NCBI GenBank assembly: GCA_963971535.1
Contig: OZ020585.1
Coordinates: forward strand, 26,323,789-26,387,788
Direction of reading: 5' to 3'
DNA length: 64,000 nt
Origin: Notolepis coatsorum
Lineage: Eukaryota > Chordata > Actinopteri > Aulopiformes > Paralepididae
The position numbers and the translations under genes are program-made. Below are positions 19,434 through 53,250 of the stretch, piece after piece; the first letter of the stretch is position 1, and each line of letters opens with the position of its first letter. A model generated the notes under the pieces. It ran no database searches and was not told where the DNA came from. It worked only from the letters and a program-made list of their open reading frames with translations.

Positions 19434-19633
19434 NNNNNNNNNNNNNNNNNNNNNNNNNNNNNNNNNNNNNNNNNNNNNNNNNNNNNNNNNNNNNNNNNNN
19501 NNNNNNNNNNNNNNNNNNNNNNNNNNNNNNNNNNNNNNNNNNNNNNNNNNNNNNNNNNNNNNNNNNNNNNNNNNNNNNNNNNNNNNNNNNNNNNNNNNNN
19601 NNNNNNNNNNNNNNNNNNNNNNNNNNNNNNNNN
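19434..19633. other. Assembly gap (200 N)
   Basis: Run of exactly 200 N; its true size is unknown. Confidence 1.
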
Positions 19634-19878: not shown

Positions 19879-20967
19879 AGGCCTCTGCATGCTACAGCAA
19901 ATTCAAAGCAACTTCGACACAACATCGACAAAGCAACGGTGTTGCAGACACTCTACCTCTTATGCTTCTGCAAAATCAACGCGCAGCCTATGTAACATTG
20001 TACCCCGTATGTAGCTAGGTTCCCTAGATAGATGACGCTTCCCTTCTCAACCAACCCATTGATAAAAGCAGAAAAATAAGTATAATTTTTACTTCCGGGC
20101 GGGGGGTTTCAAAATAAAAGAGCGAGTCTAAAAGCACCGTAAATACGTTTATTTTTTACAATATCTAACGTTACACGAACCTAAACTAATCTAAAGTTAG
20201 TTTAGGTTCGTGTTAACTTTGGATAATGTACAAAATAAACGTATTTCCGGTGATTTTAGACGTCGCTCTTTTATTTTGAAAACCCCCGACCGGAAGTGTT
20301 ATAGTGTCTGTTGCTAGCAGCTTGACTTTCTGTGCTTTTCGAGCTAACGTTACCGTAACATCATTAGTTTCCAATGGAGAGGACCTCGGCTCACATGCAG
20401 CTCAAACTACCTATTGGAATAAATTACTTGATTGATGTTTAACTTGTCCCCGTGTGTGTCCAGTCATTTCGACTAGCAAACGTTGTATTTAACGTTACCT
20501 CAGGACGGATACCATTGTATTTACTTGGTTAGCTAATGTAGCTAATGTGGATAGCATTTTGAATAGACCCAATGCTAGCTGGCTGGCTACATCTTTATTT
20601 ACTAAATTATGGAGGCTTTTTAATCGTCAAGGTAAGAGGATTTGTCATGATCAACTGAAGGCGTATGCTATGGAACAATATGTGCTTGGGTTTTCAGAAA
20701 AAGGCGAGCTATGTGACGCTGATTATTTAGCGTCAACGCTGGCTTCAACAATGGAGGATATTATTCTATGACAGCCCCGCCCCCATTCGCTAACCAACCA
20801 ATCACTGCTACGCAATATCAACGCAACGGTTGTTCAGATTAGATTCTGGGGACATGTACGCAACGTCCAAGCAACACAGTCTACAAGACCCTCTAAAACA
20901 ACCGCGCTGAAATCGCGCCGATGTTGTGTTGCAGTTGCTTTGAAGTTGCTGTAGCATGTAGAGGCCT
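19879..20967. mobile_element. PIF/Harbinger-like non-autonomous element
   Basis: Inverted ends AGGCCTCTGCATGCTACAGC and AGGCCTCTACATGCTACAGC, extending with lower identity for about 60 bp, flanked by TAA on both sides (19876-19878 and 20968-20970). A 3-bp TWA duplication is typical of PIF/Harbinger. It interrupts the Rex1 LINE. The internal 74-codon ORF (20547-20771) has no recognised motif. Confidence 0.85.
20092..20298. repeat. 207-bp imperfect palindrome inside the Harbinger-like element
   Basis: Left arm ACTTCCGGGCGGGGG...TTTCAAAATAAAAGAGCGA and right arm its near reverse complement; the centre is around TAATCTAAAG at 20192-20201. Arms are about 100 bp each with scattered mismatches. Confidence 0.9.
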
Positions 20968-22299
20968 TAAGTGGTAGCCACGTGCCATGGGGGAGCATGG
21001 TGAAGAGGTTATGACCCGGGTGGGCAGGGTCTGCCATGATCTTCCTTGCCCTCCTCAAGGCCCTGGTGGAGTGTGGGGACTCGAGGGAGGGAAGGGAGCA
21101 GCCGATCACCCTCTCCGCCGAGCGTATCACCCGCTGCAGCTTGGCCTTGTCCCTGACCGTGGATGCAGGGAACCAGGTGATGATGGAGAGGGTGAGGATG
21201 GACTGGATGATGGCGGTGTAAAACTGGACCATCATGGTCCTCGGGAGCCTGAACTTCCTCAGCTGACGTAGAAAAAACATCCTCTTCCCCGCCTTTTTAT
21301 TGAGAGCGATGGTATTCAGCTCCCATTTTAGGTCCCGGGAGAGTGTCATGCCGAGGAAGCGGCAGGACTCCACAGAGGCCACCGGGGTGCCTCCCAGAAT
21401 GATCGGGGTGGGGGGGCTGCCTTCCGCCTGAAGTCCACCACCATCTCCACTGTTTTCTGGCCGTTAAGGTCCAGGTTGTTGCAGCTGCACCAGCTCTGCA
21501 GCCTCTCGATCTCCCTCCTGTAGGCAGACTCAGATATGAGACCCACCAGGGTGGTATCGTCTGCAAACTTCAGGAGCTTGACCGAGGGGTGCAGAGAGAC
21601 GCAGCTGTTGGTGTACAGGGAGAATAGTAGTGGGGACAGAACGCAGCCCTGTGGGGAGCCAGTGCTGATGGACTTGGGATCGGAGATGTTAATTCCCAGC
21701 TTGTGTCCTGCTTGTCAGGAAGTCCGTTATCCACCTGCAGGTAGAATCCGGCACCTGCAGCAGGGACACCTGATGCTCCAGGATGTGCGGGAGGATGGTG
21801 TTGAAGGCCGAGCTGAAGTCCACCAACAGATTCCTGGTGTAGGTCCCCGTAGTGTCCAGGTGTTCCAGGACATAATGCAGAGCCATTTTCACAGCATCGT
21901 CCGTGGAATAGTTGGCTCTGTACGCAAACTGCAGGGGGTCCAGGAGAGGGTCTGTGATGGACTTCAGGTATGCCAGGACAAGGCGCTCAAAAACCTTCAT
22001 GACCACAGACGTCAGGGCGACCGGTCTGTAGTCATTAAGGCCTGTGACCTTGGCCTTCTTAGGGACGGGGATGATGGTCGAGGCCTTGAAGCACAATGGG
22101 ACCCGACACAGCTCCAGTGAGGTGTTAAATAATGTTGGTAAACACTGGGGACAGCTGGTCGGCGCAGTGCTTCAAAGGTGGCAGGTGAAATTAAATAGAG
22201 TCTGGTCCGACTGCCTTCCGGGGATTTTGACTCTTGAACAGGCGGTTCACCTCTCTTTCTGTGACAGAGAGGGAAAATCCTGGATATTTTGGGTCCTAA

Positions 22300-37682: not shown

Positions 37683-37810
37683 AATGATAAAAATGGGGGA
37701 CCCCGATGTAAACAAGACGAAAGTCTTTTTCTGGTCTGCATCCTCTTAGCAGTTTGTTTTGTATTGAGCCGTACTGAATTGTACCCATTCTGCAATCTGT
37801 TAATAAAGTT

Positions 37811-37880
<70 letters not shown>
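37683..37880 (+). mobile_element. LINE family A 3' end with long (CAAT)n tail
   Basis: GGGGGACCCCGATGTAAAC, AAGACGAAAGTC, TACCCATTCTGCAATCTG, TTAATAAAGTTTTCAATC, then about 65 bp of CAAT repeat grown from the element's own tail. Confidence 0.9.
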
Positions 37881-38064
37881 GCAATACAGTAGTTGATGCT
37901 TCCAATGCAGTCATCCCCCCCAGTGTGAGATTACTGCGGGTTTGTGTTTGGTGACATCCTTGGGTTATGATCTGCAGGTTGCTCATCTGTTGCACAAGGA
38001 GCTACAAAACATGAGCTATAAAGTCTCAGCAAAATGTTTTCTTCTGAGAATTAGGTAGTAGAGT

Positions 38065-40418
38065 TCACAGAGTGAGGGACACGTATGTGATCTCTGCACT
38101 GTTGTACTCATATCTCCCGCTCCATAGTTCCACACTGGAGCTCCTATGCAGTGGTCGTGGTTCCTGGTGCCTCCTCTGCCACCTGTGCCACAGAGAGCCC
38201 CGCTCAAACGACGACCTCTCTGAGCTGCCGGGGGCATCTTCTCCCAGCAAATCCCCATAGTCCTCAGATACACCCATCACAGGCGCCTCCATGGGTGTTA
38301 AGTCAGACGGGGGTGTGTCTTCTGTATCAGGTGGCGATGGATCTAAGACTAGTGGACCCTGATCTGAGTTGGCCTCAGGTTCCTGGTCGGCGGGTCCGAT
38401 GTCTGTATCTAATGAACCCCCTGGGTCAGGAGACACGGGACTGGGAGGAGATATAGTGACTATCACCGGTGGTACCGGGTCTTCATAACACTTGGTGGCT
38501 ACATCCTGAGGCATGTGAGCTAGGCGATACTCCATAGCCGGATCCAGACAAACAGATTCTGCTGACTGTAAAGGAGCCCCAGGGCTCACAGTGGCTGGGT
38601 CCATGGTGGGTTGGGGTGAACCTGGAGAGTCCGGTCGGTAGAGGGGCGAATTAGAGTCAAAACTCAGGTCCATCGGCTCCGGTTCAGGATCCATAAACAC
38701 AGAGTCAAGATCATCTTGGTCAAAGGAGGTCAGCATAACTATGTCAAAGTGAACCAGATCAGCATGAAATATAGGGCGTGAGTCAAGTGGTTCAGGAAGG
38801 GGGGGCCACTCTGGCTCCTGGGACTGTGTTTCAACGGTGATGGCAGGATCTGGCTGAGGGTGTACTGGATCAGAGAGGTAGGTTGAATCTAGGGCTCCTG
38901 GATCAGGAAGGGGGTCAAAAGAATAATCTGGAGGGAACTCCAGATCATCTACAAGTGAATAAAGGTCATCCGGACTTCCTGGGGAGTCTGAGTCAATGTA
39001 CACCGACACCACGATAGATGGACATTGGGTATCTGGCTCTAACATATGTGCCATAACAGTATCAAGATCAAATGGACAGATGGCGACTGGCTCTTGGTGA
39101 ATGCGTTCAGCGGAACACACAATGGGCGAGTCCAGTGGTTTTGAGTGTGAATCTGTTTGGGGCAGAAGGTCTGAATCTTCTGGATATGGTGAACAAACAA
39201 AAGGTGGGTCTGAAGACACTGGATCTGGCTTGTCCACAGTGATGGCTTCCTGAAACTCTGAATCAGATGTCACGTCATCATCCTGTTCATCTGGGGAGGA
39301 TACAGTCACCACAGGAAGTGGATATGGTAGGTGTATCGTATCGCTATCAAGTGACTCAGGGTCTGGGGTTGCCATGTCAGCTGGGAGAGATGGCTCAGTG
39401 TCTAACTGGTGCTCATTAGCAGGGTCTACAGAGACTAGGTGTGGAGAGAATATAGTGTCTGGTTCAACTGGCTCGGAAACGTGATGGCTCTCAATGGCTG
39501 CTTCCATTGAACGTGACGCTGCTGAAAGCATGGCAACTGGTTCAGTAATGAACACGTCGGGTGGGTTCACATCATCCCAGTCTGGCAGCTCTGGTGATTG
39601 GAAAGTTGGCAAGTGTACTGGTTCTGGTTTGATGGTTTTAACAGAGGCCGGAAGTATTGGATCTAGATACATCGGTATGGCACTCTCCACATACATTGAC
39701 CGTGGATTGCGGAGAATGCTGGGGTCCATAGAGAGTTGCTTTGGAAGATGTCTGCGGGCCCCCGTGTTCTTGTGCTCCTCCTCCTTCTCCTCTGGACAAT
39801 TAACAGCGGCGTCAGCGGTGCTCTGCCGGACCAGGTGCTTGCTCCTGGCCTGGGTCCCCACAGACACTTTGGATACCTGGGACCTCTTCTCTCGAGCCCC
39901 TCCAGTGCCTCTCTCCGTCCCGGAGCCTCCGAGCCCCCCTGCCCCAACCCCTGCTCCTACCCCTCCGGCAGTTCCGACTGCTGTGGTCGCACCTTGGGGA
40001 GACCAGGTGTTATAATGTTGCGTGAAAGTGTTGAAGTTACTGTTGAAGGCGCGGAGCTCCGTACACAGGTCCCTCCTCAGATCAGCCAGCTCACGACGCA
40101 TGGCTGAGACCTCTTCCTTCCACTGCATGCTGATGGCCGCGGCCAGGGTGGCTGAATCTTTGATACTGGCCTGGATAGCCTTGGGCGAGGTGTGTTCCGG
40201 GCCGTGAACACTAGGCCTACGGGGCCTGAAGAGGCTGGGTGAGACGGGTGGTCCGGACAGAGGTTTGGCTGTAGTGCCGATACTATCTCGTTGGTAAAGC
40301 CTGTCTCCTCTGATGGGGCAGCCTAGGTCATCGTGAGCCATGGGGACCGTGTCTGCCAGATCCTCGCGGACACTTGCCCGGTCAGGCAAACAAGTGTCTT
40401 CCTGCACATAATTTCCGT
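38065..40418 (-). CDS. Large unrecognised coding exon (about 783 codons) with stop; possible dlgap2 3' exon or separate gene
   Basis: Minus-strand frame open for nearly 2.4 kb, far longer than chance and without repeat character. The exon start is set by a good acceptor (TTTGTCTTCCAG before ACGGAAATTATG, boundary at 40418); no start codon is needed. The first two bases complete a codon left by a phase-1 donor, which is the phase of the dlgap2 exon at 42396-42609. Visible parts, in residues of the open frame: basic/proline-rich 64-95; coiled coil about 112-138 (MQWKEEVSAMRRELADLRRD); Gly-rich 160-190; then some 550 residues very rich in Asp, Pro, Ser and Glu with many DP/SP pairs (DSDSPGSPDD, DPGALDS), probably disordered; C-terminal segment with HRSSSVELWSGRYEY before the stop. 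I do not recognise the family. It does not resemble the known DLGAP proline-rich segment or GKAP domain. Confidence 0.65.
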
Positions 40419-42059
40419 CTGGAAGACAAATGTAAATACGGATCTGTATTATGGCCAAAGGTGTGAGCAGCTGGAGAGAATGTGCTTTTAAGCAGCAACA
40501 TCAAGCCATGCACTGAATAAGGAAATGCTATGAGTCAAAATAAGACAGGTGATCCTTCTAAGGTTATTACTACCCCACTGTGTATTCATCTTGATAAATG
40601 TGTTTTCTCAAACCACAGAGAACAATAAGGATCTTTGAAACCAATTAATTAGTGAGCACGTGTTGGTAACCAACACCACACAGAGAAATAATTCCCATTT
40701 TGACTCATTTGTGATAATGGTTTACACTGCCTTCTCAATCTTAAGTTTGTAGCATGCATTCTTCACATCTTTTCAATGCACAAAGCTGAATTCCAACAGC
40801 TTCTAAAGAAGACACATCACAGGAAAATGGACAATACCACAAGTGAATGAGGTATATAACAACAGCCCTGGCGTGCATGCTTTCTCATCTTCCACTTGGC
40901 GGTAAAACAAATGTGTTACTTTGTGCAATGAAAAGAGGCAAAGATGAGCAAAGCTTCAAGAAAACTTCTCCCCCTGTTAACCAGGAAGTAGAGTATGAAC
41001 CCTATTGAAAATGTGAGGTCCGGTCGTTTTTGACCCGTCAATCTGAAAAGCGCTGATTGCGCCTCTTTCGTATTGTGTGGGGGAAACCCCTCTATCTCAT
41101 CCCCACATTTGTGTTCTGAAGACGCAAACATATTAGCTTGAGTACATTGAGAAAGCAGTGTAAGCGGCGTATACATTGGATATAAATCTGTCAACAAGCA
41201 CATGTCTCCAGATGGCCACACCTCTAACCCTGCCTAGGACAGATTACATTAAATCGTGATGGATCTACTGTGGGAATCGTTGGGAATCCATTTTGAATTC
41301 TTTTTTTCCCGGACACTTCCAACTCTTGCTTCTTTTCTTCCCAAATTCTTCATCTGTACGCATCCTCTGTGAATCCAGCAGACATTATGGGAATAGTTGA
41401 AACTACCAGCAGCTTACAATAAATAACCAGGGGTGATTATCAGCAGTGTTTGCGTGTGCCAGTACTTTTGGATTCATTTGTCGGACCGTGGGGGAGAAAC
41501 ACTTGCAAGGGTACGCTGTGACAGTACAGTGCTTTCATCGCTGTCAAAGCTCAGTTTGTCAGGAAGGACTTTAAGGTTTGTCCATTTCACAATTGCTCTG
41601 TCCATATGTCCGTCAAACTGTGAGAACATTCACATTGGCCGTCGCGTGGCATCATGAAACAAGGTAATGTACCCTCCCCCCAAAAAACAAACGAAACAAA
41701 AAAAACACTCATTCATTAATCTGATCTGAAAAATTGACAAAATGTCCCTCCATGTTTTTTCAATAGGGTTCATTGCTTTACTCTCTGATGCATCCGATGA
41801 ATGAGCAGATGAAGAACTGTATCCAAAATACAGTATGATGAACTCACAAACTGCTGCTACAATACTCAGAGGGTCTACTAGAAACAATGGAAAACAGACA
41901 CGAGTTCATGCAGGAGATATGGAGCCATTTCACATTAGAATGGTGCAGTCTCACAATGGTGTGTCACATTTACACTAACTGATCTATGTCTTAACAATTA
42001 CTGCAAATGTCAATAGAACGTGTAAGCTTTTAAGGCCAATTTTCTTTCTTGTTTTGCAC
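40419..42059. other. Intron-like sequence, no gene recognised
   Basis: Lies between the large exon and the MITE. A 20-base pyrimidine-rich acceptor tract directly abuts the exon. No dlgap2-like PPPVPPR motif was seen in any minus-strand frame. Confidence 0.5.
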
Positions 42060-42063
42060 TTAA

Positions 42064-42305
42064 AGGGGTGCTTCACCAAAAAACTGCTGATTTATTTTGC
42101 ACATAATCGAAAAGCTCTAAACTGTTTTGCACACATTGATTTACTTTGACAGATACTGACCGGTGATGAGCGGTGATGGTGGCCACATTCAAAGCCAGTT
42201 ACTCTCAATAACTAAACGAACGTGTGCAAAACCGATTGGAGTTCTTTGACGTGTGTGCAATCACGTGAAAAATTATTGGGCATTGTTTTCCGGCAAAGCG
42301 CCCCT
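42064..42305. mobile_element. piggyBac-like MITE (AGGGGYGCTT ends)
   Basis: 242 bp, ends AGGGGTGCTTCACC and (inverted) AGGGGCGCTTTGCC, flanked by TTAA (42060-42063, 42306-42309). It lies 90 bp downstream of the dlgap2 exon donor. Confidence 0.82.
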
Positions 42306-42395
42306 TTAAGATAAGCTAGCAGCATCGTCAGAACGCTGCATGACACATCATAATGTATTGTAGTGTTAAAGCATGTCTGTCCAGCCTGTCTTTAC

Positions 42396-42609
42396 CTGTG
42401 GTGGACCTGATGGTGGAGGTGACAGTGGAGGAGGCCATGGAGGGGATGCAGTCGTCATCCTGGGAGTAGCCGGCCTGGATGGCCCGCAGGTAGCTGTGGC
42501 TCCTGGTCCGGAAGCACCCGGGGAGGTCCAGGGCTTCCATGGCCTGGGACTCCAGCTCGCCGAACACGGACTCACACACGGACTCAAACTGCCCATTTGT
42601 CTCACTCAC
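42396..42609 (-). CDS. dlgap2: dlgap2 internal exon (disks large-associated protein 2-like)
   Basis: 214-nt exon: acceptor TGTTGTTTGTGGCAG at 42610 upward, donor GTAAAG at 42395 downward. It encodes VSETNGQFESVCESVFGELE, then SQAMEALDLPGCFRTR, SHSYLRAIQAGYSQDDDC and a Ser/Thr-rich end. NGQFESVCESVF and DLPGCFRTRSHSYLRAIQAG are hallmarks of DLGAP/SAPAP/GKAP scaffolds; the wording is closest to DLGAP2. DLGAP proteins link PSD-95 guanylate-kinase domains to SHANK in the postsynaptic density; the SYLRAIQAGYSQ unit fits the GK-binding repeat class, where a phosphorylated Ser contacts the GK domain. It starts in phase 0, in frame with 45442-45601, and ends in phase 1. The paralogue (2a or 2b) cannot be told. 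Confidence 0.88.
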
Positions 42610-42839: not shown

Positions 42840-43608
42840 GAAAACAAAAACAGGCTCGGAAACTATCCAATTAAAGGGAGTGCAAAATGTTCCAGCAGGC
42901 AATTTATGCAGAGGAGTTAACAAAATTATGTGTTTATGACCTAAATGTCAGAATATTTGCGAGTCTTGCCTGGAAATGTCTTTTGTGGCTTTTCCACACA
43001 GCACAAGGCATTTAAGCTGTATTGTAATTTGCCGCATAGCCCATGGTCTAAACGTCACACAAGGTGAATTTGTACAGGTTTACGGTCATGTTATACAGCC
43101 ATGTACAATATGAACACCCTGGATGTTTACTGATCACCACAATAGCTATTGCCGCAGACCTTGAACTCTATCTCGTGATTCCTGAGGTATTTATGCTGTG
43201 ATACCCGAGATGTCAAACTCGATAGAAATGTTCTACTGGGTAGAGGTGGTTTGATAGGAATCTCCCTATTCCAATTGAGCAATCTTGAGAATCAAATATA
43301 CCAATCCTGTTGTATTGCTAGATGCATTATCTCGTAGTGACGTTAGCAAGGTACGCCACTGAGGCAGTGACAGAGACTGGGAATTATAGGAGTGATGTTG
43401 AGCCTTCAAGATGCTGAAACAAATCAATACAGCTCTCTCGGGAGGGAGATCAAAATCTCAAATGACACCAGCTCCATTAGTATCATGTACAAGGAATATC
43501 TGTAAAATATGACATAATCATAGGAACATGATAGATAGATGATTTTAAATTATAGCACGTTTGAGCAAGGATCATGGGATTCTTCATCACAACATATATG
43601 TTCTTACT
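42840..43608. other. Intronic sequence, no gene recognised
   Basis: Unique-looking sequence between the microsatellite and the L2 insertion. Confidence 0.4.
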
Positions 43609-43612
43609 GTCA

Positions 43613-44940
43613 TAGGCAACTACCGTCCTGTCTCTCTTCTCTCCTTCCTTTCTAAAACACTTGAACGTGCTGTATCCAACCAACTTACTACTTATCTCTT
43701 ACAGAATGACCTCCTAGACCCTAATCAGTCAGGCTTCAGGACTGGTCACTCCACAGAGACAGCCCTCATTGCGGTCACAGAGGCACTTCACTTAGCAAAA
43801 GCGAAAGGCCTCTCCTCTGTCCTGATTCTCCTAGATCTATCTGCAGCCTTCGACACAGTCAACCACCAGATCCTCCTTGCGGCCCTCGCAGGAATGGGAG
43901 TGGCTGGCTCTGCGCTGACATGGCTGTCATCATACCTCAATGACCGCTCCTACCAAGTGTCATGGAGAGGGACCCTGTCGGCCACCCGCCCCCTGCGGAC
44001 GGGTGTCCCCCAGGGCTCGGTTTTAGGACCCCTTCTCTTCTCCCTCTACACTAAATCACTGGGTAACATTATCACGTCTCATGGCTTCTCCTACCATTGT
44101 TATGCCGACGATACTCAACTCTTCCTCTCCTTCCCTCCCTCAGATATCCACGTCTCTGTGCGGATCTCGGCCTGTCTGTCCGACATCTCAGCCTGGATGA
44201 CGTCCAACCACCTCAAACTGAACCTAAGCAAAACAGAATTGCTCCACCTGCCGGCCAAATCCTCCCCCCTAACCGACCTTTCAATCACAGTCGAGAATGC
44301 AGCTGTGACTGCGTCCCCGACCGCCAAGAACCTTGGTGTTGTCCTCGACGACCAGTTGAACTTCTCTGCTCACATCGCAGCGACGACCAGAACCTGCCGA
44401 TTCCTCCTGAGCAACGTCAGAAGGATACGCCCCTTCCTGACAAAAGAAGCCACCCAACTCCTCGTCCAATCAACAGTCATCTCCCGCCTCGACTACTGCA
44501 ATGCACTGCTCGCTGGCCTCCCGGCCACTGCCACTAAGCCTCTTCAACTCATTCAGAACGCAGCGGCCCGCCTGATCTCAAACCTACCGAAGTCGGCCCA
44601 TGTCACCCCACTTCTTAGGGACCTGCACTGGCTCCCCATTGCTGCACGAATCCGCTTCAAGGCCCTCGACCTAGCATACCGTGCGGCAAAGGGAACCGCT
44701 CCCGCCTACCTCCGGTCAATGGTCTCTAACTACACACCCTCAAGACCCCTACGCTCTGCATCTTCTGGCCGCCTCAGACCTACTCCTATCCAAGCTCCGG
44801 GAGGGTCATCAAAGAGAAGTCGCCTATTCTCAGTCCTTGCCCCACAATGGTGGAATGAACTACCCACCCCAGTTAGGACAGCCGAATCACGTCCAATCTT
44901 TCGCCGTCGACTAAAGACGCACTTCTTCAACCATTATCTG

Positions 44941-44976
<36 letters not shown>

Positions 44977-45441: not shown

Positions 45442-45601
45442 CTGGCTCACTTGGCTCACGCAGCTGGCCTGGCTGAGGGTGCTGACCGCGCGCATGTAGC
45501 TCTGGTTCCTGGAGCGGAACTTGGGGGAGTTGTAGTTGGCAGAGGGATCCAGGGCGATGCCAGGGTGCATGTCTCTGGTGGCCTGCAGGTGGTAGCTCTG
45601 A
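45442..45601 (-). CDS. dlgap2: dlgap2 internal exon
   Basis: 160-nt exon: acceptor GTTCAG (45602-45607), donor GTGAGT (45441 downward). Its first base completes a Ser codon begun in the previous exon; 53 codons follow and it ends in phase 0. It encodes QSYHLQATRDMHPGIALD, then PSANYNSPKFRSRNQSYMRA and VSTLSQASCVSQVSQ. SPKFRSRN(E/Q)SYMRA is a signature of DLGAP1/2, and the DPSANYN and SQASCVSQVS wording points to DLGAP2. SYMRAVSTLSQ is a GK-binding-repeat-like unit, the upstream partner of the SYLRAIQAG unit in the next exon. The pyrimidine tract of the acceptor is a CT microsatellite (45609-45661 on the plus strand as GA). Confidence 0.92.
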
Positions 45602-50149: not shown

Positions 50150-50287
50150 ATGCCATAAATGTCATGTATGTTGTGTATGTCATAAATGTCTATATGAATT
50201 GAAAATGGGGGACCCTGATGGAAACAAGACAAACGTCTTTCTCAGGTCTGCATCCCCTTAACAATTGTATGTATTGAGCCGTACTGT
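50150..50287 (+). mobile_element. Older LINE family A 3' UTR, left part (split by younger copy)
   Basis: TGAATTGAAAATGGGGGACC, CTGATGGAAACAAGAC, TATTGAGCCGTACTGTATTG; continues after the younger element at 53256 with ACCCATTCTGCAATCTG. This gives two pieces of one element. Confidence 0.88.
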
Positions 50288-50292
50288 ATTGT

Positions 50293-53250
50293 GATCATTA
50301 TATGATATTCTGTACCCGCAAAAAGCTAAAACAAAAGGCTGGCTGTCACAAAACAGTCACATCTAGAGACCTAAAAACCTACTCTAGCGAGGCCTTTAAC
50401 CTTGAACTGGAGGGTCTGGACTGGTCAGATGAGCTCAATGGTACACTGGTTGAAGAAACATGGCTTGGCTTCAAAACCAAATTTTCAACGATACTAAACA
50501 ACATGGCCCCCCTAAGAACCACCAGGGTAAAAAATCGCGCTGAGCCGTGGATGCACGCTGAAATACTGACCGCTATGAAAACCAGAGACAAAAAATGCTC
50601 TGAGTTTCGTAAAAGTCAGTCAAAGCTTAACATAAGCACGAGCAGTGAACTCCAAGCCCACGTGACTGAACTCAAACTGCAAAGAAACAGACTAAGAAAT
50701 GATGTAAACTCCATGATCAAAACAGCAAAGAAAAAATTCATCAATGACAAAACCGAGGAAAACAAAAACAAACCGCGTGAACTTTGGAAATTACTCAATA
50801 ACCAACTAGGCTGCAGTAAAAAACTTAAAACCAGATTCTCAAACATAAACATAAAGACGGACAACACGCTCATCACAGAAAAGCTGGATGTAGCCAATTA
50901 CTTAAATAGTTTCTTCACAAACATAGCCACAACACTGGTAAACAAACTACCCTCCCACTCAGGGCATTATGGGGTAGAACACATAGTAGCTTACTACAAA
51001 AACCTAGGGGTCCACAAAGACGACTTCAAACTGGAAATGGTAACAACAGATGAGGTACTCAAAAAACTGAGCGCCCTCCAACCTAACAAGGCCACTGGCC
51101 ATGACAACATCCCCTCCAAATTCCTCAGAGACTCAGCAGCCGCCATCACCCCAGTCATCACACACATAATAAACCTCTCTATAAAACAGGGACACGTCCC
51201 CAAGGACTTCAAAATTGCGAGAGTGACCCCTCTGCACAAAAAAGGCAGTAAATTAGACCCAGGCAACTACCGCCCTGTTTCTATCCTTACCTCCATCTCG
51301 AAAGTCATGGAAAAAATTGTATACGAACAGGTCGAAAAATACCTTGCGGAAAAAAATCTAATCTACGAATTCCAATCTGGCTTCAGAACATCCCACTCCA
51401 CTGACACATGCCTTCTCTATTTAAACGACCACATCAAACAAGAGGTGGACGCGGGCAAATACTGCGGCATGGTCATGCTGGACCTACAAAAGGCCTTCGA
51501 CACTGTCAATCACACCATTCTGATTGACAAGCTAAAAGCAATTGGTTTTGATAGTCTATCAGTGAGCTGGATGCAATCCTACCTGGAGGGGAGAGAGCAG
51601 ATGGTGGAGGTAAACGGTACCCTATCCCCCCCCCTCACAGTAAACTGTGGTGTTCCACAAGGAAGCATACTAGGTCCGCTACTGTTCCTAATTTATGCAA
51701 ATGACATGTCGTCAGCTTGTGACTGCAACTTGTTCCTGTTTGCGGACGACTCAGCCCTGCTGGTCTCTGACAAGAACAAATTACAGGTTGAAAAAACCCT
51801 CAGCTCAGAACTAAGCAAAATCTGCATATGGCTCGCTGATAACAAACTATCATTACACATGGGCAAAACAGAGTCCATTCTCTTCGGTTCAAATAACAAA
51901 CTCAGCAAGACCGACGGCTTCTCAGTTACAGTGGGTGACAATATTGTCACAAGGAAAGAAGATATTACCTACCTGGGTTCCATCCTAGAGGCAAATCTTT
52001 CCTGTGACAAAATGGCATCCAATGTAATAAAAAAAGTCAACCAACGAACTCGTTTCTTGTACCGGATCTCCTCACTGGTAAACAAGAATACCCTGAAGAC
52101 TCTAGCAGGAGCACTCATTCAAGGGTACTACGACTATGCTTGCACCTCATGGTACCAAAGCACCTCAAAGGCGCTAAAAACAAAATTACAAACATCTCAA
52201 AACAAACTGGTCAGACTACTGCTTGACCTTACTCCTAGAACCCACCTCACCCCTGCCCACTTTGACAACCTAGGATGGCTTAGAGTAGACGACAGAGTAC
52301 AGCAACTTGCAATGGGCCTGGTCTACAAGATACACTACACGACCAAGGTACCCATGTACATGACTAAATACTTCCCAAAGGTCAGTGAATACCACGATCA
52401 CAACACCAGAGGGAGCTCCACAAATCATGTTAAACCCAGATTCGGCTCAAACAAGGGACTAAACACGTTTCGCAATTATGCCACATCAATGTGGAACGCC
52501 CTACCCAAAGCTGTAAAGAAATGTGAATCACTACCCACTTTCAAAAACACTCTCAAAAAACACCTAAGGGAGACTGCAACTCGAAACTGGCCCCTGTAAA
52601 TGTCCGAACACAACCCCCGCCAATGTACAGTAAATTACCAAGTATGGTCTTGTCAATAATCCAATGTACAGTGTTGTTTGTACAGTTGTACAGTGTCCCC
52701 CACCCACCCCTCCTACCCACCCCCCCCCCCCCCCACCCAACCACCTCCAATGTACAGTCCAATGTACAGTCCCATAATCCAATGTACAGTGTTGTTTGTA
52801 CAGTTGTACAGTGTCCCCCACCCACCCCTCCTACCCAACCCCCCCCCCCCCCCCACTCCTACCCAACACCCCCCCCCCCCCCCCCCCCCACTCCTACCCC
52901 CCCCCCAACCACCTCCAATGTACAGTCCCACCCCCACCTACCCAATCCAATGTACAGTTTCTACGCCTAATGTATATACTCTTTTCTTTCTGGACTCTTT
53001 TTGTATCACAAATACAGTACTGTAATTGCAAATCTGGTATGTCATAAATGTATAGATGTAGCAGTACTGTCTATCTGTATGTCATGTATGTCATATATGT
53101 TACGATGAATTGGAAATGGGGGACCCTGGTGGAAACAAGACGAAAGTCTTTCTCTGGTCTGCATCCCCTTAACAATTGTATGTATTGAGCTGTACTGCAC
53201 TGTACCCATTCTGCAATCTGTTAATAAAGTTTTCATTCATTCATTCATTC
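50293..53250 (+). mobile_element. LINE family A: RT-bearing copy with open reading frame
   Basis: 2.96-kb insertion flanked by ATTGT (50288-50292 and 53251-53255). The frame from 50293 starts at DHYMIFCTRK, the end of an APE endonuclease domain (SDHxxI motif), and is open to the stop at 52597-52599. It includes NYRPVSILTSISKVMEKIV, QSGFRTSHSTDTCL, LDLQKAFDTVNHTI (motif A), NCGVPQGSILGPLLFLIY (motif B), FADDSALL (catalytic, about 51739-51762), LSLHMGKTESILFGS and NYATSMWNALPKAVK. The 3' UTR has C-rich tracts with TGTACAGT repeats (52640-52960), the conserved end block and an ATTC tail. The endonuclease is truncated, so it is not autonomous. Clade: CR1/L2/Jockey-like group, unresolved. Confidence 0.93.

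Follow-up and report, generated by a model that had tools for sequence, protein, structure and literature searches.

In a 64,000-nucleotide (nt) stretch of the genome of the fish Notolepis coatsorum (C6:26323789-26387788; the whole stretch is called the window here, and the assembly totals 3.42 Gb), the minus strand carries two exons of dlgap2, A and B, followed by a giant coding exon of 2,354 nt. From its sequence and placing, we consider that this is very probably a last exon that dlgap2 uses alternatively. In a second dlgap2 copy, on contig C8, a homologous exon stands in the same place and phase, and in both copies the intron between exon B and this exon holds two pairs of complementary elements that interleave. 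As a more tentative proposal, the resulting crossed, pseudoknot-like pair of helices, older than the divergence of the copies, might switch dlgap2 pre-mRNA to a PSD-95-binding, SHANK-non-binding uncoupler isoform.

Exons A and B belong to DLGAP2 (SAPAP2), of the DLGAP/SAPAP/GKAP family of postsynaptic scaffolds, and so do the canonical 3' exons in either copy. DLGAP proteins bridge PSD-95 and SHANK at excitatory synapses, DLGAP2 counts among the candidate genes for autism and further disorders, and a dynein-light-chain region, a GH1 domain and a SHANK-binding C-terminus are features of the family (PMC9740047). Unlike the family, the tail isoform would end without these three parts. Coordinates of the features are collected in Table 1.

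Table 1. Features of the dlgap2 locus, in window positions; minus-strand features follow the order of transcription
Feature	Position	Strand	Remarks
dlgap2 exon A	45442..45601	-	phase 2 in, 0 out; holds RNQSYMRAVSTLSQ; C8 copy has the same exon
dlgap2 exon B	42396..42609	-	214 nt; phase 0 in, 1 out; holds RSHSYLRAIQAGYSQ repeat
Intron from exon B to giant exon	40419..42395	-	1,977 nt; C8 counterpart 3,681 nt
Element 1	41757..41773	-	pairs with element 2
Element 3	41146..41163	-	pairs with element 4
Element 2	40995..41011	-	reverse complement of element 1
Element 4	40722..40739	-	reverse complement of element 3 (one G-U)
Giant exon, putative alternative last exon	38065..40418	-	2 nt completing a codon, 783 codons and stop
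Conserved core, residues 79-138	40003..40182	-	heptad-like spacing, suggests coiled coil (simple heptad score)
SVG(T/I)QA region, residues 185-190 (SVGTQA)	39847..39864	-	from alignment with C8
C-terminal segment HRSxSxELWS...Y(V/L)S(L/M)(T/S)(L/F), residues 757-783	38068..38148	-	44% identity to C8 end over 27 columns, E 0.11
Assembly gap of 200 N, probable left end of misoriented contig	19434..19633 (C6:26343222-26343421)		only N run in the window

A giant coding exon within a dlgap2 intron

Within a dlgap2 intron, 2.0 kb downstream of exon B, a phase-compatible acceptor is followed by a long open frame and a stop. The original prediction had noted that exon B leaves in phase 1 and that the acceptor at 40418 opens a frame of about 2.35 kb in the matching phase, ending in a stop. 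Both statements hold. The acceptor scores 9.4 against a consensus matrix, which places it at the 99.1st percentile among the 4,062 AGs of the strand and above all others among the 11 acceptors that score at least 6 between 40300 and 42396. In 100 first-order simulations of 10 kb, read in six frames, no stop-free stretch exceeded 303 codons; the 783 observed are not to be expected from chance.

The exon also has the composition of coding sequence, with a G frequency of 0.353 at codon position 1 versus 0.143 at position 2. This coding signature covers most of the stretch from acceptor to stop and is not seen outside it; in-frame stops end at 40418 and reappear after the stop of the exon. An exon scan was run with scoring matrices, and the 22 best non-overlapping candidates per strand were retained. 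On the minus strand, the only candidates scoring above about 25 were reverse-transcriptase pieces, the exons at 45442-45601 and 42396-42609, and pieces of the giant exon.

The neighboring exons are recognizably those of DLGAP2. The match around exon B has 81% identity over 78 columns with human DLGAP2, and RNQSYMRAVSTLSQ in exon A is, we take it, one of the guanylate-kinase-binding repeats of the 14-residue type. Exon B is the proposed donor for the alternative end, and its C8 counterpart, of 220 nt, likewise leaves in phase 1. As the original prediction had reported, neither a PPPVPPR nor a GKAP exon was found in the window, here by tblastn with protein queries.

Two further features lie within or just past this frame. 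An internal donor at 39993 (score 7.4) would give an in-frame cassette of 426 nt; a matching donor was not seen, by eye, in the C8 sequence. An array of TGATTGATTG (37690-37885), which includes a stretch recurring elsewhere in the window, starts about 180 nt past the stop and would fall in the 3' untranslated region.

A homologous exon in the second dlgap2 copy

When the genome was searched with the giant exon, a single significant relative was found, on C8 (C8:131288312-131289123, minus strand; E 5e-24, 50% identity over residues 44-149), and the third match had an E-value of 0.5. In the 200 kb examined around the C8 match, this tail exon lies 3.7 kb downstream of exon B of the second dlgap2 copy, on the same strand, and the N-terminal exon and exon A precede exon B in order, also on that strand. 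Both tail acceptors are in phase 1, provided that C8 uses the earlier of two AGs spaced by 2 nt. Together with the G from exon B, the split codon in either copy then gives an acidic residue, followed by G. The C8 tail exon is shorter, encoding about 271 residues as compared with 783 for C6.

Conversely, when the C8 tail served as the query against the whole genome, E-values below 0.01 were obtained only for the C8 tail itself and the giant exon (2 of the 13 matches listed to E 10). The next match, at 0.02, is elsewhere, and the other dlgap loci (C9, C29, C44 at 97.5 Mb, C30 at 91 Mb and C7 at 34.7 Mb) account for none of the 13.

Conservation between the two loci is concentrated in the same few places. 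When positions 36-48 kb of the window were compared by blastn with the first 22 kb of the C8 stretch, each of the seven matches coincided with exon A or B, with the giant exon or with the intron elements; two were in the giant exon, one of them spanning the acceptor, and three were at the elements. At the protein level, all 21 matches of the 36-48 kb region to C8 were in one of these three exons or in a repeat at 37.67-37.82 kb. Among 120 protein-level matches of the window to C8, none was confined to the intron that separates exon B from the giant exon, and the three that touch it each straddle an end.

The tail exon is thus conserved in place between two dlgap2 copies. The original prediction had left two readings, a novel dlgap2 tail or the terminal exon of an unrelated gene embedded in the locus. 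The C8 homologue, at the same position, strand and phase beside dlgap2 exons, disfavors the second; together with its conserved coil and C-terminus and the purifying selection described below, it strongly favors the first. The caution that a phase match has a one-in-three chance was fair, but it has been overtaken by the duplicate copy with the same phase.

In a variant of the embedded-gene reading, a small gene of its own would have been nested in the dlgap2 intron since before the divergence of the copies. It would consist of a noncoding first exon and this coding exon, with translation starting at an internal methionine. Such a gene would need the acceptor at 40418 too, and M26 is invariant in the two-sequence alignment. 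However, the frame is open and coding-like right from the acceptor, and both copies keep the phase that matches exon B. Moreover, the complementary elements are the only DNA or protein matches between the copies that are confined to the intron, and 500-base windows starting at 40501-41751 are not island-like (GC 0.38-0.44, CpG observed/expected 0.16-0.66). A Pfam scan of minus-strand frames at 23-38 kb and 40.5-64 kb, with stops read as X, gave no domain reaching the cut-off, and therefore no domain of a second gene was found beside the giant exon. We regard a nested gene as quite improbable.

The canonical GKAP end and the orientation of C6

The canonical exons were located with human DLGAP2 as the query. 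On C8, exon C (KKTPPPVPPR) lies 57 kb after exon B and is followed on the same strand by the GKAP exons, in order, to ADSIEIYIPEAQTRL; the PPPVPPR and GKAP exons occupy the region 57-90 kb further on, and the last exon ends in ATERADSIEIYIPEAQTRL, like human DLGAP2. Missing from the C8 matches was one upstream exon (query about 337-435); the C8 stretch analyzed contains three gaps. The gene as a whole therefore has N-terminal and repeat-bearing exons homologous to DLGAP2, as well as the GKAP/GH1 region and the SHANK ligand. Because the C8 tail exon lies inside the intron between exons B and C, it would be an alternative last exon and not the replacement of a lost 3' end. The earlier observation that no GKAP domain is seen thus stands for the tail isoform but not for the gene, which has the domain in order on C8 and on the opposite strand on C6.

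On the minus strand of C6, the N-terminal exon (26486782-26487885) is followed by the next exon (26393618-26393893) and then by A, B and finally the giant exon. The match to the second exon of this row carries an internal stop. The C6 GKAP exons are on the plus strand (26523790-26563705), 160-200 kb from the giant exon and between assembly gaps. Five exons of this half look intact, at 66-97% identity to human DLGAP2, and a stop reported within one GKAP-exon match falls beyond its donor. Exon C was not found on C6 and may sit in a gap. The only N run of the window has a partner, also of 200 N, at C6:26519954-26520153, 3.6 kb ahead of the first GKAP exon. Between the two gaps, the block C6:26343422-26519953, of about 176.5 kb, holds the 5' half of dlgap2, and flipping it would restore one collinear gene. 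Because the GKAP exons are on the opposite strand, the borders coincide with gaps and the flip restores collinearity, this block is probably misoriented through a scaffolding error.

If the inversion were real, together with a real tail exon, C6 would make only the tail isoform and C8 the canonical one, a subfunctionalization by inversion. The assembly as it stands, with the 5' half on the minus strand, the GKAP half on the plus strand and exon C not found, agrees with this. However, the five intact-looking exons and the coincidence of both known borders with gaps make it unlikely. Alternatively, the opposite strand of the C6 GKAP exons (26.524-26.564 Mb) and the gap-bounded inverted block might mean that an assembly or rearrangement artifact has joined two unrelated genes on C6, with an accidental phase match. 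Such an artifact would account for the missing GKAP exons but not for the giant exon. Moreover, no N run interrupts the stretch from exon A to the giant exon, and on C8, with its ordered gene, exons A and B are again accompanied by the tail exon. We find this explanation hardly credible.

Further partial copies of the N-terminal exon were noted. One lies on the opposite strand in the first large intron (C6:26455597-26456272, plus strand) as two matches of 55% and 42% identity, the second with two stops, and another fragment is on an unplaced contig (C3823:1733-2310).

Conserved parts of the tail and selection

Three parts are common to both tails: the coil core (AIQA..K.SA...A..MQWK.E.SAMR.ELA.LRR..C.EL..FNSNF..FTQ.YN.W), the motif VSVG(T/I)QA and the HRS.S.ELWS C-terminal segment, which comprises the last 27 or so residues. 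The long middle, acidic and rich in proline and aspartate, is mostly private to the C6 copy. Of the tail described as acidic and coiled-coil, the probable coil is thus conserved, whereas the acidic stretch is mostly specific to C6.

Codon-level conservation, which had been proposed as a check, was assessed between the paralogues. The core, compared over 54 codons, has a dN of 0.25 and a dS of 1.34 (dN/dS about 0.19) and is under purifying selection. For comparison, dN is 0.13 and dS is 0.93 over 374 codons of five canonical exons. If the C6 and C8 copies are a pair from the teleost duplication, the exon and the pairing of the intron elements would predate it; the divergence of the canonical exons fits such an age without proving it.

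The tails end in a hydrophobic-x-hydrophobic pattern (L-T-L and M-S-F), which differs from what we take to be the T-R-L of the canonical DLGAP end. VSVG(T/I)QA presumably resembles the GIQVD-type light-chain motif of canonical DLGAPs. The C8 tail (L002:1135-1932, minus strand) carries ATQTDD besides VSVGIQA, both of which, we assume, resemble dynein light-chain binding motifs. This tail might thus retain light-chain binding that is otherwise supplied by the canonical part.

The protein encoded by the giant exon (P0001) has no Pfam match reaching the curated cut-off and no clear similarity to the DLGAP sequences compared. Searches for relatives gave nothing significant in solved structures, phage records or, by peptide, paper text. 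Viral contigs and prokaryote genomes also gave nothing, which is uninformative, as a dlgap2 exon matched nothing there either.

Crossed complementary elements in the intron

With low-complexity sequence excluded, the introns between exon B and the tail exon (lengths in Table 1) share three words of at least 12 nt, of 18, 16 and 16 nt. In 200 shuffles of both introns, the longest common word did not exceed 14 nt. The intron between exons A and B, used as a control (2,832 and 1,025 nt), has no common word of at least 12 nt, and the 3 kb past the stops have one, of 12 nt. Two of the common words are reverse complementary to each other, and the third has its complement in each intron; two complementary regions are thus conserved between these related genes. 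In both copies the order along the RNA is 1-3-2-4, so that pairs 1:2 and 3:4 interleave. In C6, the predicted duplex energy is -34.2 kcal/mol for 1:2 and -28.5 kcal/mol for 3:4; the corresponding values in C8 are -32.9 and -35.7 kcal/mol. From element 1 to element 4, the arrangement takes up about 1.05 kb of the 1.98-kb intron in C6 and about 2.0 kb of the 3.7-kb intron in C8.

In the whole assembly, the 16-mer of element 1 occurs at three sites (C6 elements 1 and 2, and C8 element 1), and the 18-mer of element 4 at two, in the C6 and C8 introns, with none for its reversed control. Exact copies of both searched words are absent elsewhere in the genome; inexact copies were not sought. The second helix, 3:4, has 17 pairs in either copy and differs between them by three one-sided changes, each of which preserves pairing. 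Two two-sided changes fall beyond mismatches. Taken together, the sequences suggest that the paired elements are likely under selection.

The window is repeat-rich, and the elements could instead be remnants of an inverted transposon pair that form no selected RNA structure. However, neither of the searched words has a further exact site in the assembly (the limit on inexact copies applies here as well), the interleaved order is unlike that of a nested inverted repeat, and both copies keep both arms, yet their introns share no other word of at least 12 nt. This origin appears very improbable.

Proposed mechanism

We infer that exon B splices to the acceptor at 40418 rather than to the distant exon C. 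The product would keep the N-terminal region as well as the 14-residue repeats, which bind PSD-95 family proteins at their guanylate-kinase domain, and would be without the dynein-light-chain, proline-rich, GH1 and SHANK-binding parts, with a presumed loss of SHANK coupling. In its tail, an acidic linker of variable length would connect a short coiled coil to a conserved C-terminus; the coil could oligomerize the isoform. Helices 1:2 and 3:4 probably fold the intron and bring the donor of exon B and the acceptor at 40418 nearer to each other; a shorter effective intron would give this acceptor an advantage over exon C, which lies tens of kilobases further on. That the helices act in this direction, toward the tail end over exon C, seems to us an evenly balanced possibility.

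Several observations weigh against parts of this proposal. The tail isoform is predicted here from genomic sequence, and its conservation is judged from two paralogues of one species. No AATAAA occurs within 1.8 kb past either stop. The first ATTAAA is 1,085 nt past the stop in C6, where weaker variants occur from 300 nt onward; in C8 it is 68 nt past the stop and lies within an A-rich run. The tail core has also evolved faster at amino-acid sites than the canonical exons (dN 0.25 versus 0.13).

For the elements, a 16-mer is expected about one to two times by chance in an assembly of this size, and the reversed control of element 1 also has three sites. This site count is ordinary, and the weight therefore rests on the placing of the sites, all three of which are in dlgap2 introns. 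Covariation is thin, because the core of helix 1 is invariant and the changes in helix 2 are one-sided. When the whole C6 intron is folded under a nested model, 3:4 has a probability of 0.81-1.0 and 1:2 of 0.00; as the two helices cross, a nested model cannot hold both. Shuffled introns gave internal inverted words of up to 20 nt, which we take to come from low-complexity runs, and the length of the inverted words alone is therefore not the argument.

Relation to known systems

Alternative terminal exons that replace the C-termini of scaffold proteins likewise end the message inside an intron of the longer gene, with a stop of their own. Unlike these, the dlgap2 tail is without clear similarity to the DLGAPs compared and is preceded by conserved long-range helices. 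A search for conserved complementarity is reportedly available as IRBIS.

Pairs of conserved complementary regions (PCCRs) have been described in an article in which one of them loops out an alternative terminal exon of FGFR1OP2 (PMC8052449). The dlgap2 elements resemble PCCRs in being two conserved complementary intronic regions, hundreds of nucleotides apart, that adjoin an alternative 3'-end exon. In contrast to the FGFR1OP2 case, the dlgap2 tail exon is outside the loop, and both pairs are in the upstream intron and cross each other. The parallel concerns the kind of structure, and DLGAP is not named in the main text of that article (0 occurrences). Among the matches listed in open full-text literature, we did not find such a dlgap2 isoform described; fish transcript databases may already carry a model.

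Other features of the window

A 35-bp tandem repeat occupies positions 830-2059 (35.5 copies, 96% match). Three long open frames, at 43549-44946 (plus), 50278-52599 (plus) and 20837-22171 (minus), presumably resemble reverse transcriptases of the non-LTR (long terminal repeat) type; two are uninterrupted, of 465 and 773 codons. Rfam and tRNA scans were empty.

Significance

If our reading is true, dlgap2 would have an old, conserved isoform that keeps the PSD-95 end of the protein and drops the SHANK end, a natural loosening of the bridge between them. The paired intronic elements would then provide a sharp prediction, open to mutation, about how the choice of end is made, and one that is testable in fish.

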